Source of the DNA: Bacteroidia bacterium
GTDB taxonomy: Bacteria > Bacteroidota > Bacteroidia > Chitinophagales > UBA2359
Length of the DNA: 64,000 nucleotides
Reading direction: 5' to 3'
Assembly: GCA_030427245.1 (NCBI GenBank)
Contig: JAUHXA010000018.1
Coordinates: 40,777-104,776 of the forward strand
Shown here one piece after another: positions 1,582 to 49,180 of the stretch. Every line of letters begins with the position of its first letter. Within the stretch, counting starts at the first letter, position 1. The notes under the pieces were generated by a model. The model ran no database searches, had not been told where the DNA came from, and saw only the letters and a list, made by a program, of their open reading frames with translations. The position numbers and the translations under genes are program-made.

Positions 1582-3297
1582 ATGTCTCTAAAGCACGAAA
1601 TAGATGAACAAGGAGAATACAATTTTGTGATTCCCAATATTAAAGACTGGCCGATCTATGATGTAAATCAACAAAAAACCGAGTTTTTGCAGGACTTAAT
1701 AGCTCGTACAAAAGAAAAAATCAAAGAAATGGCGGGCAGTCCTAAAAAACTGCACGATATTTTGGCTCGGACTCGTTACCTCGAACAAATTCGAATTCAA
1801 GAAGAACCTTGGAGAGTGGACCCAAGTGACGACTGGAGATTTTGGCACAAAAAGGTGAGAAAAGTATTGCTAAAAAGCGCAACCCAACACAATTATGACA
1901 ACGGATTGAGTGCTTCTGAAGAGGCTATTTTTGATGACATCATCAGCCGTTATGCACACGAAATCGTAGGCAGTTTTCGCCCAAAAACTTATCATTTGGC
2001 GAGCAAAGTTTTGCCCCGTTTTCTCTCTCGATTACTCAATACTTTTTCTTCTCGAAAATTTTTCAAAGTCAAATACCGCCTCAAAGATCGCCTCAAAATA
2101 ACAGGGCAAATTGAATTGATTCGGGAATTGGCGACCAAAGGAACGCTAGTGGTTGTTCCTACACACTTCAGTAACTTAGATTCGGTGTTGGTAGGATGGT
2201 CTTTGCATACGATTGGCTTACCTGCCTTTTTGTATGGCGCAGGATTGAATTTGTTCAACAGTCGAATCTTCGGATATTTTATGAGTCGGTTAGGGGCGTA
2301 TCGTTTAGACCGAAGAAAGAAGAATCCTTTGTATATGGAAGCCCTCAAAATGTATTCACAAATTGTGGTAGAGCGAGGTTGTCACAGTCTGTTTTTTCCT
2401 GGAGGAACTCGTTCCCGATCAGGCTCAATTGAAACACGCTTGAAACTGGGGCTTTTGGGTACAATTGTCGAAGCTCAAAGGCGTAATTTTGTAGAAGATA
2501 TTCCCAAATATGGCAAGGAGCCTACTGACAGAGGCAACAAAGTCTTCATTGTTCCTTTGGTATTGAATTACCATTTTGTATTGGAAGCCAAACGATTGAT
2601 TGATCAACATTTGAAGCAAAGCGGCAAGGAGAAATACTACATTGACAAAGATGTATTTCCGAGCAGTAAGAAGGCTTATGAGTTTTTGGCGAGCATGGTT
2701 GGGGAACGCTCCGAAATCTTGCTTTCCTTTGGCAAACCTATTGACATATTTGGGCATCCTGTCGATTCAGAGGGCAATAGTTTAGATAGTAATGGCAATT
2801 TTGTTGATATCGAAAATTATTTTGTATCAAACGGTAAAATGAGTGAAGACAAGCAAAGAGATGAAGAATATACTCGTTTGTTGGGCGAACACATTTTGAA
2901 GCAGTTTTACCAATACAATGTAGTTATTTCCAGCGATTTGATTGCTTTTATAGCCTTTGAACTATTGAAGAAAAGAAATCCTAAATTTGATATTTTTGGC
3001 TTGCTCAGATTACCTGAAGAAGAACGAGTCATTGACTACAATGACTATATAGAAACAGTCGAAAAAATCAGAAAAGAACTGAATATTAGAGCAAAACTGG
3101 GAGAACTGCAAGTCGCAGATCACCTAAATACAGATATTCACCGCTTGGTCAATCATGGTCTGAGTAATATTGGATTGTACCATACCGAACGCCCTGTGCG
3201 AAAAACGGAAAATGGAGACATTACGAGTGACAACATGAATCTGCTTTATTATTATCACAATCGTTTGTTGGGTTATGAGTTGGAGAAATTGATATAG
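1582..3297 (+). CDS. 1-acyl-sn-glycerol-3-phosphate / glycerol-3-phosphate acyltransferase (PlsB-like)
   Basis: HX4D motif 'PTHFSNLDS', 'LGAYRLDRR', 'FFPGGTRSRSG'. ORF opens at 1507; in-frame ATG at 1582 (MSLKHEID) is a plausible start. Confidence 0.85.
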   Translation: MSLKHEIDEQGEYNFVIPNIKDWPIYDVNQQKTEFLQDLIARTKEKIKEMAGSPKKLHDILARTRYLEQIRIQEEPWRVDPSDDWRFWHKKVRKVLLKSATQHNYDNGLSASEEAIFDDIISRYAHEIVGSFRPKTYHLASKVLPRFLSRLLNTFSSRKFFKVKYRLKDRLKITGQIELIRELATKGTLVVVPTHFSNLDSVLVGWSLHTIGLPAFLYGAGLNLFNSRIFGYFMSRLGAYRLDRRKKNPLYMEALKMYSQIVVERGCHSLFFPGGTRSRSGSIETRLKLGLLGTIVEAQRRNFVEDIPKYGKEPTDRGNKVFIVPLVLNYHFVLEAKRLIDQHLKQSGKEKYYIDKDVFPSSKKAYEFLASMVGERSEILLSFGKPIDIFGHPVDSEGNSLDSNGNFVDIENYFVSNGKMSEDKQRDEEYTRLLGEHILKQFYQYNVVISSDLIAFIAFELLKKRNPKFDIFGLLRLPEEERVIDYNDYIETVEKIRKELNIRAKLGELQVADHLNTDIHRLVNHGLSNIGLYHTERPVRKTENGDITSDNMNLLYYYHNRLLGYELEKLI

Positions 3298-3367
3298 GGA
3301 GATAGGAAGAAGGAAATGAGAAGTGGGAGGAGAAAACGAGAATCATTCAAAATACAATATTTAAAAC

Positions 3368-4402
3368 ATGAGTTATTACGGTGTCATTGGTTCGGGAAAT
3401 TTTGGTACGGCTATGGCAAATGTCATGGCACTCAATGGAAAAGTATTGATTTATGTACGCCGACAAGAGGTATATGACAACATTTTGCATAAACGCTTCA
3501 ATAGAGGTCAAAAAATGCACCCCAATGTGCGTCCCACCTTGAGTCTGGAAGAAGTGGCCGAAAACTGCAAAATTATCGTTCCCTTAGTCCCTTCTTCCAA
3601 TTTTCGAGATATGATGAAAAAGGCTGCTCCCTGCCTTACACCTGAACACATTTTGATTCATGGAACAAAGGGGTTGGGTCTTAGCATTCCTTCAAAAACG
3701 GAGATGGACAAGGCGATTCCCCTACGACGAGAATACATCCAAACGATGAGTGACATCATACAACAAGAAAGTGTGGTCATTCGAGTTGGGTGTTTATCTG
3801 GCCCTAACCTTTCCAAGGAGATTGCCAACAATGAACCGACTGCAACAGTTGTGGCAAGTCGCTTTGATGAGGTAATTTCAAAGGGAAAGGAAGCTTTGAG
3901 AGGATCCATGTTTCGGGTTTATGGCAGTCATGATGTGCTGGGAGTCGAATTGGCAGGAGTATTGAAAAACATCATGGCCTTGGGAGCAGGTATGTTGAGA
4001 GGTTTGAATTTTGGTGAAAACTCCAAAGCTATGTTGATTTCTCGTGGCTTGGGCGAAATGATAAAACTCGGCAATGCATTAGGAGCAGATACGACTGCAT
4101 TTTTAGGTGTAGCAGGTGTAGGCGATTTGGTAGCAACTTGTTCAAGTCACCTCAGTCGCAACCATACAGTAGGATATCGCTTAGCAAAAGGAGAAGAATT
4201 GCAGGCGATTGTGACGGATATGAATCAAGTGGTGGAAGGTATCAAAACGGTACGAATAGCAAAAGGTATCGCAATGTATTACCAACTTGAACTGCCTATA
4301 GTAGAAGGATTGTATCGCGTTTTGTACGAAGGAGACAGCATAGCAAATTGTATGGAGTATCTGATGAGCCATGGTTTTGATAAGGATGTGGATTTTTATT
4401 AG
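3368..4402 (+). CDS. gpsA: NAD(P)H-dependent glycerol-3-phosphate dehydrogenase
   Basis: N-terminal GSGNFGTAMA, 'GVELAGVLKNIMALGAGM', 'GVAGVGDLVATCSSHLSRN'. Confidence 0.93.
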   Translation: MSYYGVIGSGNFGTAMANVMALNGKVLIYVRRQEVYDNILHKRFNRGQKMHPNVRPTLSLEEVAENCKIIVPLVPSSNFRDMMKKAAPCLTPEHILIHGTKGLGLSIPSKTEMDKAIPLRREYIQTMSDIIQQESVVIRVGCLSGPNLSKEIANNEPTATVVASRFDEVISKGKEALRGSMFRVYGSHDVLGVELAGVLKNIMALGAGMLRGLNFGENSKAMLISRGLGEMIKLGNALGADTTAFLGVAGVGDLVATCSSHLSRNHTVGYRLAKGEELQAIVTDMNQVVEGIKTVRIAKGIAMYYQLELPIVEGLYRVLYEGDSIANCMEYLMSHGFDKDVDFY

Positions 4403-15982: not shown

Positions 15983-15997
15983 TCATTTTAACCCTCA

Positions 15998-16143
15998 GTA
16001 CAGGACAAAACTATATTTGAAGCGAAAGACCTTATAGGTTTAACCTCTAAAAGCATGTACAGGTTTGATAATCTGATTAAATTACATAAACAAAAACCTA
16101 TAAGGTTTGAAAGTCATGCTCAATAAAACGTTTTGTCCTGTAC
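15998..16143. repeat. 146-bp palindromic MITE-like element, family 2 copy 1
   Basis: 14-bp perfect TIR GTACAGGACAAAAC/GTTTTGTCCTGTAC; inner ACCTTATAGGTTT/AAACCTATAAGGT; related to 23617-23760. Confidence 0.8.
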
Positions 16144-16154
16144 AAATGTTCCAA

Positions 16155-28276: not shown

Positions 28277-29944
28277 TTACCGAATCAAAACAGACCGACT
28301 CACCGCCTGTCCACCCGCTTCAATCCGATAAATATACTGACCTGCAGGAAGATAAGTCGAACCAGAAGGGCGAAGAATAGCCTGATGTGTCCCTGTTAAT
28401 TGATAATCGTTCACCAAAGTCGCAACGACCTGACCCGCCAAATTGTGAATGTCCAAACGGACATGAGCCGAATAAGGCAAAGTGTAGTGAATCAATACTT
28501 GACGACTGCCATCATAGCGAGCCTGATGTTCAATCGCCAATTTTTGAGTCGAATCAATAGAAGTGCCTCCAATGCAATCCAATCCCAAATCACCGATTCG
28601 ATTGAAGTCGTGACCCAACACATTATCCACCGTTTCTGCATCAATACATAGCCAATTCTCCATAATGGTCGCATAAATTTCTCTGAAATCGGTGTGAAAT
28701 TTCAAATTCCCAACCTCATCTACATCCTGCAAATCGGGCGCAGTTCCCACAAAACCATTGCCATTTAAGCCTCCTCCAAAAAGCATCAAAGGCGCAGCTG
28801 CACCATGATCTGTGCCGTTTGAACCATTTTGTTCGATGCGACGACCAAACTCAGAATAGGTCATTGCCAACACTTTATCCTCCAAACCTGCTACCGCCAA
28901 ATCCGCAAAAAAATCACTCAAACCACCTGCCAAATTGTTCATTAGGTTGGGGTGATTGTTAGGTTGATTGGCATGAGTATCAAAACCGCCCAATTCGACC
29001 ATAAACAACTTTGTGCCTAAATCGCCCTTAATTAACCGAGCCACCAAAGACAATTGATCTCCCAATTGAGTGCTGTAGTCTACGCTATTCGTCCCTGCAT
29101 CATATGCCTCTTTGATAACTCCAGCATACACAAAAGTCGCATTGGCAACCGTCCGTAAGAAACTCAATTGGTCGCCCACCAAACATTCAGGAACATCTTG
29201 TGTATCGTAGAGTGCGCCATTTTGAGCGATTTCAAACAATTGTTCAGGATTGTTCACCACCACCGACAAATTATTTAAGCCCTCTTTGAAAACCAAATTG
29301 CCCGAACCTCCAATCTGTACGGCTGGCGGAACAGCGGGCGGATTGGTCAAATAATCGGGATATTCACCACTCAAATATCGCCCCAACCAACCGTCTTGCA
29401 CGATGTCATTGGCATCACTCGCACTTGCCCAAATATCGGAGGAGCGAAAATGCGACAAGTTTTGATTGGGATAACCCACACTGTGCACGACCTTCATTTG
29501 TCCTTCTTGCCAAAGTGATTGCAGAGAATTCATATAATTTGGCATTCCAAATTCGGGACTGAGGGCGGTAATCGCATTGGTTGGAACTGCAATCGTTGGG
29601 CGCAAGCTCGAATACGTTCCATAATCGAAAGTCGGAATCACCATATTCAAGCCATCATTGCCGCCCTTCAATCGAATCAATACCAAGATTCTATCTGTTT
29701 CTGCTTCGCTCAAAGCCTTCAAAAAAGGTGAAGGAGCTGCTGCGCTGATTGGCGTTTTACCGAGCATCATGGACATTCCCCCTGCAATACCCAAGCCCTT
29801 CAAAAAACCCCGACGGGACCAATTGCGGTGTGCTTGTTCGTGGGCAATTCCATCTTCCAATCGGCTGCCATCGTATTGTTGTTTTTTTGCAGCTCGAAGC
29901 TTGGATTGAAGTAATTGAAGGTGTTTTTTATATTGATTTGACAT
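28277..29944 (-). CDS. DUF1501 domain-containing protein with T9SS-like C-terminal signal
   Basis: Twin-Arg-like 'SRRGFLKGLGIAGGMSMMLG'; 'GGFDTHANQPNNHPNLM', 'YSEFGRRIEQNGSNGTDHGAAAPL'; C-term '...AGQYIYRIEAGGQAVSRSVLIR'. Confidence 0.94.
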   Translation of the reverse strand: MSNQYKKHLQLLQSKLRAAKKQQYDGSRLEDGIAHEQAHRNWSRRGFLKGLGIAGGMSMMLGKTPISAAAPSPFLKALSEAETDRILVLIRLKGGNDGLNMVIPTFDYGTYSSLRPTIAVPTNAITALSPEFGMPNYMNSLQSLWQEGQMKVVHSVGYPNQNLSHFRSSDIWASASDANDIVQDGWLGRYLSGEYPDYLTNPPAVPPAVQIGGSGNLVFKEGLNNLSVVVNNPEQLFEIAQNGALYDTQDVPECLVGDQLSFLRTVANATFVYAGVIKEAYDAGTNSVDYSTQLGDQLSLVARLIKGDLGTKLFMVELGGFDTHANQPNNHPNLMNNLAGGLSDFFADLAVAGLEDKVLAMTYSEFGRRIEQNGSNGTDHGAAAPLMLFGGGLNGNGFVGTAPDLQDVDEVGNLKFHTDFREIYATIMENWLCIDAETVDNVLGHDFNRIGDLGLDCIGGTSIDSTQKLAIEHQARYDGSRQVLIHYTLPYSAHVRLDIHNLAGQVVATLVNDYQLTGTHQAILRPSGSTYLPAGQYIYRIEAGGQAVSRSVLIR

Positions 29945-30115
29945 TATTTTATTATTTAATTTTGAAGTTTTGAGAAATCTATTGGGGAAAAAATAACTTT
30001 GATTTTCAATCGAGCTTTCAAACTAATGTGGATTCGGTAAGTCCGTAGGACTTAAATATTTGTAGAAAAAATCAAAAGCTAATCAAAGAAATCTATTGGA
30101 GTTCAACTCCTAATT

Positions 30116-30248
30116 CATACTACTGTACATTTTTAATTCAACCACAAAAGGTACAAAGAAAACAAAAGTAAAGAACTGAAACTTAACAGCGTCTTTTGTG
30201 CCCTTTTGATACTTTTGTGGTTCAAAAATCATTTTGTACAGTAGTATG
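30116..30248. mobile_element. 133-bp MITE (family 1), copy A
   Basis: 14-bp TIR CATACTACTGTACA/TGTACAGTAGTATG; flanked by perfect 9-bp direct repeats CTCCTAATT (30107-30115 and 30249-30257). Confidence 0.93.
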
Positions 30249-30596
30249 CTCCTAATTATGATTCAAAAAACAAACGGGTAATATATATAAATTGCTTTAT
30301 GCTTTATTCTTACAAATCAATTGATTTGGAACTAAACAATACATTTAAAACACTTTACCCGTTTCAAATTTCGTCTAATCTACTCACAAGATTTCCCGAG
30401 GTTTCGGGACAGGCATTACAGAATGACAAATAAAGAGGGTGTCATATTGTAAATATCCTGTGAGAAAATATCAATAAATTGTATCCAATGGATAAATTCT
30501 GATAAAAACAAAAAGCTAAAAATATCGGATAAATTTTTGAGAAACCTCATACATTCATTAAATTTTAAGAGCTAATTACCAGTCCACCAATCACCA

Positions 30597-32054
30597 TCAT
30601 CCCAACTGAAATTCTGGTAACTGCGATACATGAATCAGCAAAAGAGCAACCATCACATCCACATATTCCCAATCCAAATTCCACAATCCCTCGTCAAAAT
30701 AATTTTGAGGTACTTCAAACTTGAAAACTTCAGTAGCCACCTCATAGGCATTTTCTGATTGCAGTCCATTGACCACAAAATGATCGACAATGCTTCGGGT
30801 GATAAAAGCGGGGTCATTGGAATTATTCGACAAAGTTTTGGCGAAAGTCACCAATTCGGGGCTGTAATTTTCGTAGATGTAACCGACATAAGCCTGAATA
30901 TACTGCCAACGTCCTGTCAAAGTAGCGGAGGTAATCCAACTTTTGTCGCCTTGCCAACCTGCCACATCCACAGGCTCAAACAATTGCTGCCCCAAACCAC
31001 CTGCGCCATAGCCCAAAAACTGCACAATATCAGTGCCGTAGGTGAAATTGGTATCGTTCAAAAAACTCACCAACAGCACCAAAGGGCTTTTGATTTGCGT
31101 ACCGATATTAGCTTCATCAAAAAAGTGTTCACTCTTGAACAATTGCCGAAAAACAGGCGCTAATTCAAAATCGTTGTTTTTGAAAGTTTCCGCCAAACCG
31201 TTTACAATTTCTACATCAACTTCAATTCCCACAAAATGCTTGTAAATCTTAGTGCAAATATGTTGGGCAACTTCGTTGGCTCGCTGTTCAAACAATATAT
31301 CGTGTACATCTTCATAACCCCAATTGCCCGTTTGACCGAAAATCGTTTTTGTTCCGTTGTCGTGGCGAGGTGCGAAAAAGATGGATTCACTACAGCCAAC
31401 AGGTATAACCCAACCTGTCAAAGCCCTTGCTGTTTCGGTGATATCATCTTGGGTATAGCCCTTGTCTTGACCAAGCGTAAAAAGTTCGTAAAGTTCCCGA
31501 GCATAGTTTTCGTTGGGATTGTCTTTGTCGTTTTGAACTCCATTTAAATAGACCAACATTGCAGGAGTTTTACCCATTTCTTCGGTGAAAATCTTGAAGT
31601 TGCCGAGGGCGTATTGTTGCAGTATTTTGTGATAAGAATAAAGCTGTGGAGGACAAACATAGGTTTCCAATTCGGTGACAAAATGATTGTGCCAAAAAAG
31701 CATCAATCGTTCCCGAAAACTATTGGTTGCCATCGCCTCCAAAGATACCGTTGTCCACTCCAAAAGATGGTCTTGTACCACATCAATATCCACCTGATAA
31801 TCTTCTACTGTCCAATCTTTCCAGCTAGGTGCATTGGGCAAGGGCTCGTTGGTGGCATTGTCAATCATTTGGTCGACTAAATCCAAAGGATTGGCTTCCA
31901 AAGCTGCTTCAATTTGTGAATGAGATGCGCCAAAGCCCAAACGTCGCAGGAGGTGCATGGCTTTTTTTCGATTCCAAGGGTTTGTTGAGTTGGGAATGTA
32001 AGGAGCTAAAGTGCCTGTCGTACAATCGTTCATCAGTAAGGTTTCGCTAAACAT
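30597..32054 (-). CDS. DUF1800 domain-containing protein
   Basis: 'AMHLLRRLGFGASHSQIEAAL', 'RERLMLFWHNHFVTE', 'NENYARELYELFTLG', 'ITETARALTGW'. In-frame ATG at 32036 is an alternative start. Confidence 0.95.
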   Translation of the reverse strand: MFSETLLMNDCTTGTLAPYIPNSTNPWNRKKAMHLLRRLGFGASHSQIEAALEANPLDLVDQMIDNATNEPLPNAPSWKDWTVEDYQVDIDVVQDHLLEWTTVSLEAMATNSFRERLMLFWHNHFVTELETYVCPPQLYSYHKILQQYALGNFKIFTEEMGKTPAMLVYLNGVQNDKDNPNENYARELYELFTLGQDKGYTQDDITETARALTGWVIPVGCSESIFFAPRHDNGTKTIFGQTGNWGYEDVHDILFEQRANEVAQHICTKIYKHFVGIEVDVEIVNGLAETFKNNDFELAPVFRQLFKSEHFFDEANIGTQIKSPLVLLVSFLNDTNFTYGTDIVQFLGYGAGGLGQQLFEPVDVAGWQGDKSWITSATLTGRWQYIQAYVGYIYENYSPELVTFAKTLSNNSNDPAFITRSIVDHFVVNGLQSENAYEVATEVFKFEVPQNYFDEGLWNLDWEYVDVMVALLLIHVSQLPEFQLG

Positions 32055-46913: not shown

Positions 46914-46950
46914 ACTATACTTTTTGATTTTATTTACCTTAGTAAAAAAG

Positions 46951-47031
46951 AAAAAATAACTTCCCGACCGATATTCCCCTTTTGAAAGGGGGTGGGGTAT
47001 GTTAGCAAAAGAAAACGGGGAGTTATTTTTT
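46951..47031. repeat. 81-bp inverted-repeat element with central CCCCTTTTGAAAGGGGG hairpin
   Basis: AAAAAATAACTTCCCG (46951-46966) vs CGGGGAGTTATTTTTT (47016-47031), 15/16 complementary; inner palindrome 46976-46992. Confidence 0.65.
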
Positions 47032-47183
47032 TACCGTTACTTAAATCTGTTTTTTTCTTAGATTATCCATAATAATAGTTCTATCATTCATATTTATTAT
47101 TTTTGTTTTATTAAATTTGGAACGATATTTCGTGTAACTCATGAACTTCACTCAATGTTCAATTCACCTTGTAAAATACATGT

Positions 47184-48979: not shown

Positions 48980-48989
48980 AACTTCATCT

Positions 48990-49122
48990 CATACTACTGT
49001 ACAAAATGATTTTTGAACCACAAAAGTATCAAAAGGGCACAAAAGAGATAGATGAATTTCAGTTCTTTACTTTTGTTTTCTTTGTGCCTTTTGTGGTTGG
49101 ATTAAAAATGTACAGTAGTATG
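48990..49122. mobile_element. 133-bp MITE (family 1), copy B (inverted relative to copy A)
   Basis: Same TIRs; perfect 9-bp direct repeats ACTTCATCT (48981-48989 and 49123-49131); hand alignment to copy A has about 9 mismatches in 133 bp. Confidence 0.93.
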
Positions 49123-49180
49123 ACTTCATCTACCAAACCCAGTTAAAACTACTTTGGAAAAAGTATGCTGTACTTTTGAA

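Follow-up and report, generated by a model that had tools for sequence, protein, structure and literature searches.

A 133-bp gene-less repeat in a Bacteroidota genome is a MITE of probable IS4-family parentage

The named elements nearest to the transposase considered here as parent are ISAba1 and ISDra1. ISAba1, an IS4-family insertion sequence (IS) of Acinetobacter, is 1,180 bp long and has 15-bp inverted repeats and a 9-bp duplication (PMC3498117). Two IS4 subgroups have similar dimensions: IS4Sa, with ends CA------T, direct repeats (DR) of 8–10 and lengths of 1,150–1,750 bp, and IS10, with DR 9, lengths of 1,200–1,350 bp and ends CT (De Palmenaer 2008, PMC2266710). Among MITEs, the closest described cases are BrickBuilt and MITE293/464/700 of Porphyromonas gingivalis (PMC4596501), which, like the MITEs reported here, belong to Bacteroidota, share their ends with ISs, and have unrelated interiors and internal repeats. 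Unlike in the present MITEs, the ISPg elements with which they share ends belong to other families; their target-site duplications (TSDs) are short and inconsistent, and of 19 copies only 4 have both ends intact.

In the window (the whole 64,000-nucleotide stretch of Bacteroidia bacterium DNA that was analysed), a non-autonomous MITE of 133 bp occupies positions 30116–30248 on the + strand, between a DUF1501 gene (28277–29944, minus strand) and a DUF1800 gene (30597–32054, minus strand). The 9-bp sequence CTCCTAATT stands immediately on both sides of it (30107–30115 and 30249–30257, no strand), a match expected by chance with a probability of ~8e-6 given the base composition. The left 14-bp TIR, CATACTACTGTACA (30116–30129, +), the presumed transposase-binding end, and the right TIR, which reads TGTACAGTAGTATG on the + strand (30235–30248, −), are 100% complementary. 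Nested within them is an imperfect inverted repeat, whose 21-nt arms, TTCAACCACAAAAGGTACAAA (30137–30157, +) and TTTGATACTTTTGTGGTTCAA (30205–30225, +), are 81% complementary. The element contains no ORF of useful length and thus no coding capacity. The earlier note had described the element, its perfect duplication and TIRs, its nested repeats, its lack of an ORF and its two neighbours, and each of these descriptions holds. The copy differs from the family consensus at 7 positions, of which four are consecutive and lie in the central loop (element positions 73–76, 30188–30191, +). As a single strand, it folds far better than shuffled sequences (z −5.3 as DNA, −6.5 as RNA), and a search of Rfam with the 133 bp gave no credible match, the sub-threshold hits being miRNA-like hairpins of which the best is far below the gathering score. 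A second copy lies at 48990–49122 on the minus strand, flanked by TSD ACTTCATCT (48981–48989 and 49123–49131).

The element is dispersed throughout its own genome. The exact TIR 14-mer occurs 86 times genome-wide versus 0 times for a reversed control, and a genome search returned 149 candidates, 40 of which are near full-length copies. Sampled sequence contains 7 copies per 452 kb, which extrapolates to ~100 copies in the 7.58-Mb genome. Among 50 full-length copies, the 9-bp TSD is exact in 32 and has at most one mismatch in 42, compared with 0 of 9,802 shuffled flank pairs, and duplication lengths of 7, 8, 10 or 11 bp each account for no more than one copy. The target site is preferred and symmetric, A-N-[AT.....AT]-N-T: an A stands two bases before the duplication in 34 of 42 copies and a T two bases after it in 30 of 42, with AT...AT at the edges of the duplication. 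The 50 copies differ from the consensus at 1–14 positions each and form 92 near-identical pairs. Insertions favour intergenic sites, with 35 of 44 outside ORFs of 100 aa versus 24% of positions chosen at random within the flanks of these sites, and in some cases a copy splits a reading frame that would run further without it. The earlier note held that the element is mobilised in trans, a view that two copies alone or identical flanks would have undermined; the ~100 dispersed copies, whose flanks differ at every site, bear it out, and no such transposase was detected in either the window or the assembly. In its length (within the 50–1000 bp range), its lack of a transposase gene, its TIRs, its constant TSDs and its dispersed copies, the element is a MITE; ends in common with an autonomous element are found in relatives, not in its own assembly. 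No full-length copy was found in 19 other genomes of the same family; since the genomes searched included no second species of its own genus, no empty orthologous site came to light. Matches in G003, G008 and G018 proved to be partial inner-arm or end pieces. Plasmid and viral collections likewise yielded no full MITE.

Other repeats were observed in the same material. A second MITE family of ~154 bp is present in the window (15994–16147) and elsewhere in the genome (G000:C173:6192–6345); its ends, CTCAGTACAGGACAAAAC, are close to CTAAGTACAGGACAAAA, the ends of a distant IS4-type IS in G303, and a 9-bp TSD, AGCAATAAT, was read by eye around the C173 copy. A repeat of ~105 bp with inverted ends TTTAGTAAAAAAGAAAAAATAACTC (window 46938–47045) has at least 9 copies in 388 kb of the genome. 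A 224-bp element with ends GTGCCTGAACGGAAA and TTTCCGTTCAAGCAC (L086:446–669, also in L241, L226 and L007) is 100% identical in its four copies, which have 6–7 bp flanking duplications, and looks recently active; one copy sits within a broken IS4-like transposase gene. The genome's own IS1634-family IS (G000:C146) lies between identical 397-bp direct repeats (L085:716–1112 and 3112–3508), both of which include a truncated 133-bp MITE. For IS1549 and IS1634, duplications that are long and variable (8–514 bp) have been reported without a mechanism (PMC2266710).

ISs with nearly the same ends are present in related genomes. Eighteen further genomes of the order have the ends CAYACTACTGKACAT, and a 17-base end pattern was found in 19 of 399 order genomes, nearly all of family f18, versus ~5 single matches in total for the reversed control. 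In a scan of the collection, a Phaeodactylibacter MAG yielded a 132-bp element with identical ends, another interior and TSD AGTTTTGTG, and many further elements of 49 to 236 bp with ends CAYACTACTGGACA, mostly with 9-bp TSDs; none of the transposases of this MAG has matching ends, and no evident transposase stands beside its unpaired ends. Two end pairs ~1.19 kb apart were found. The first, in G341, delimits a 1,190-bp IS whose 9-bp TSD, ACGGACTCT, is perfect and whose intact transposase of 372 aa is encoded by one ORF; the second, in G183, delimits an element of 1,193 bp with a frameshifted transposase gene and no TSD. The ends of both are identical to those of the window MITE at 15 of 16 positions, the difference being at position 11 (T in the MITE, G in the ISs). 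A search with the G341 protein added an intact IS in G307, a 1,191-bp contig by itself, an intact 1,255-bp IS in G165 with TSD CCTTCTAAT, a homologue in G219 and, in the same family as the window genome, the G008 IS described below. Within G165, a 153-bp MITE has both ends in common with the IS, as well as the subterminal stretches GGCATGATTTT and GAAAAGCA. Two plasmid-borne ISs, of Spirosoma (ends CAGACTACTGGACATT) and Persicobacter (ends CATACAGCTAGACATT), each with a perfect 9-bp TSD and with ends of the matching kind, were found by protein alone, so that the support they give does not depend on the search by ends. Genomes with the ends and genomes with the transposase overlap in 6 cases versus 0.86 expected (p=7e-5, a value that ignores shared ancestry within f18), and 5 of 7 genomes with a close homologue are in the overlap.

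The G341 transposase matches Pfam DDE_Tnp_1 (E=5e-13, 49.7 bits versus a cut-off of 23), and its best NCBIfam model is IS4_2 at 112 bits; this score is under the model's cut-off of 152, so that the subgroup placement is loose. In the transposase alignment, the catalytic residues D100, D164 and E269 and the YREK motif (Y-2-R-3-E-6-K, in G341 YVKRWRIECLFFHLK) are conserved, the catalytic columns being invariant. The 9-bp duplications of the G341, G165, Spirosoma and Persicobacter ISs lie within the ~8–13 bp range of the IS4 family. Because the relatives' ISs with such ends and 9-bp TSDs encode an IS4-type transposase, and because the G165 pair shares sequence, sequence evidence places the window element among the MITEs of the IS4 family, with ISAba1/ISDra1-type elements as its closest kin. 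Of the families that the earlier note had considered compatible, IS4 was thus the right one; the ends of the ISs found here presumably differ from those of IS1. The ISAba1 transposase is ~30% identical to that of the G341-type IS over the matched part, and the two ISs are similar in length; ISAba1 differs in having two overlapping ORFs with a frameshift in place of a single ORF, and matching ends were not found in the ISAba1 copy checked. With ends CATACTACT, DR 9 and lengths of 1,190–1,255 bp, the parent ISs resemble IS4Sa, a weak fit since the IS4Sa end consensus comprises only three bases. They agree with IS10 in DR 9 and depart from it in having ends CA rather than CT; CT ends occur only among more distant relatives (CTAAGTACAGGACAAA in G303). 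IS10 and IS50 use a hairpin-intermediate cut-and-paste chemistry. Supports in the transposase tree are too low to decide the IS4 subgroup, and a PDB sequence search with the transposase returned nothing meaningful.

The own assembly contains no homologue of the parent transposase in a protein search or in a profile search at E≤1, and for this reason the actual helper was not seen. Its DDE_Tnp_1 matches number three, one IS1634-family IS and two IS4-like remnants, and the ends of all three, including the IS4_1 remnant in C78 and the remnant in C145, mismatch those of the MITE. All unpaired exact TIRs in the genome belong to diverged or truncated MITEs. One end pair in L060, 1,225 bp apart with 2 mismatches, has no transposase between its ends and takes its right end from a MITE copy, and is therefore a chance pairing. 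A full IS with the same TIRs, for which the earlier note had proposed a search, is consequently not found in this genome; relatives such as G341 have one with the near-identical ends described above.

We consider it highly probable (about 0.92) that the element is an IS4-family MITE mobilised in trans by the DDE transposase of a ~1.2-kb parent IS that the genome has since lost or the assembly fails to include. A trans-acting transposase would bind the two 14-bp ends of the gene-less MITE, move it and insert it where the target strands are cut with a 9-bp stagger, and gap repair would produce the 9-bp duplication. The parent would have the ends CAYACTACTGGACAT and encode a transposase of 370–390 aa; G341, G307 and G165 have intact ISs of this kind, and G183 a broken one. 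The MITE would have spread to ~100 copies, mostly intergenic, and the parent would afterwards have disappeared from the genome, if it is not simply missing from the assembly. We infer that the window copy was moved by a transposase of the G341-type class.

How the MITE came to this genome admits a variant of the same explanation, in which it arrived horizontally and was amplified by a briefly present helper, for example one borne on a plasmid. The 19 same-family genomes without a full-length relative, the frequency of the ends in f18, an interior apparently related to those of Phaeodactylibacter MITEs (G061, score z 3.3–4.7) and the IS relatives on Spirosoma and Persicobacter plasmids all fit such an arrival, which we regard as a possible history, if the less likely one: the plasmid collection gave no MITE match, and G008, of the same family, has a related IS of 1,232 bp with ends CACACCGCTATACATT and a TSD with one mismatch, so that vertical inheritance followed by loss is just as possible. 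A mover of another family with similar ends, such as the own IS1634-family IS or an unrecognised IS, is improbable; that IS is the sole intact own DDE_Tnp_1 transposase seen, but IS1634 duplications are 5–6 bp or long and variable rather than a constant 9 bp (PMC2266710), the own copy is flanked by the 397-bp direct repeat and has mismatching ends, and every IS found with matching ends, across several genomes and records, encodes an IS4-type transposase. That the 133 bp is an immobile structural RNA or regulatory hairpin, as its strong folding and its position between two genes, like the largely intergenic positions of the other copies, might suggest, is refuted as the main explanation by the TSDs and is highly unlikely given the ~100 copies at unrelated sites, the copies that break reading frames, the lack of a full-length copy in the 19 family genomes and the Rfam result.

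Elements with the ends of this MITE have many unrelated interiors of 49–422 bp, mostly not mutually alignable. Most of the interiors are strongly palindromic: folding z is below −3 in 21 of 29 interiors versus 2 of 28 flanking stretches. The interior of the window MITE resembles one G061 class (with CACAGAG repeats) and G287 (score z 3.3–5.4) and no others, and has no recognisable derivation from an IS interior. In sampled sequence, it is always accompanied by the ends, and a motif of the G183 interior is confined to end-bounded elements. The interiors either diverge very fast with pairing kept or get replaced. We tentatively propose, at somewhat less than even odds, that this group of Bacteroidota has a single IS4-type transposase system in which the evolving unit is the constant end pair, while the unrelated palindromic interiors between the ends are acquired or exchanged again and again; a hairpin interior may be favoured. 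At the two extremes of size, 49-bp elements in G061 (L111:1466–1514 and L113:1466–1514, one with TSD CTGCGGCAC) consist of little more than the two ends and are possibly the smallest form this system moves, and elements of 392–393 bp in G263 (L164, L165 and L158), with the same ends and 9-bp TSDs, have several nested palindromes and very strong folding (z −16.7 for L165).

IS-derived MITEs are already known as a kind. The papers searched seem to contain no description of this particular MITE family, of the IS that is its parent or of the exchange of palindromic interiors, and ISfinder may list the parent IS. An unannotated repeat of ~100 copies can now be placed in a transposase family, with intact parent ISs named as candidate helpers. 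It belongs to a MITE superfamily that extends over about a dozen genera, in which the ends are constant and the interiors change yet remain palindromic, so that the origin of the interiors and selection for hairpins become testable by comparison.
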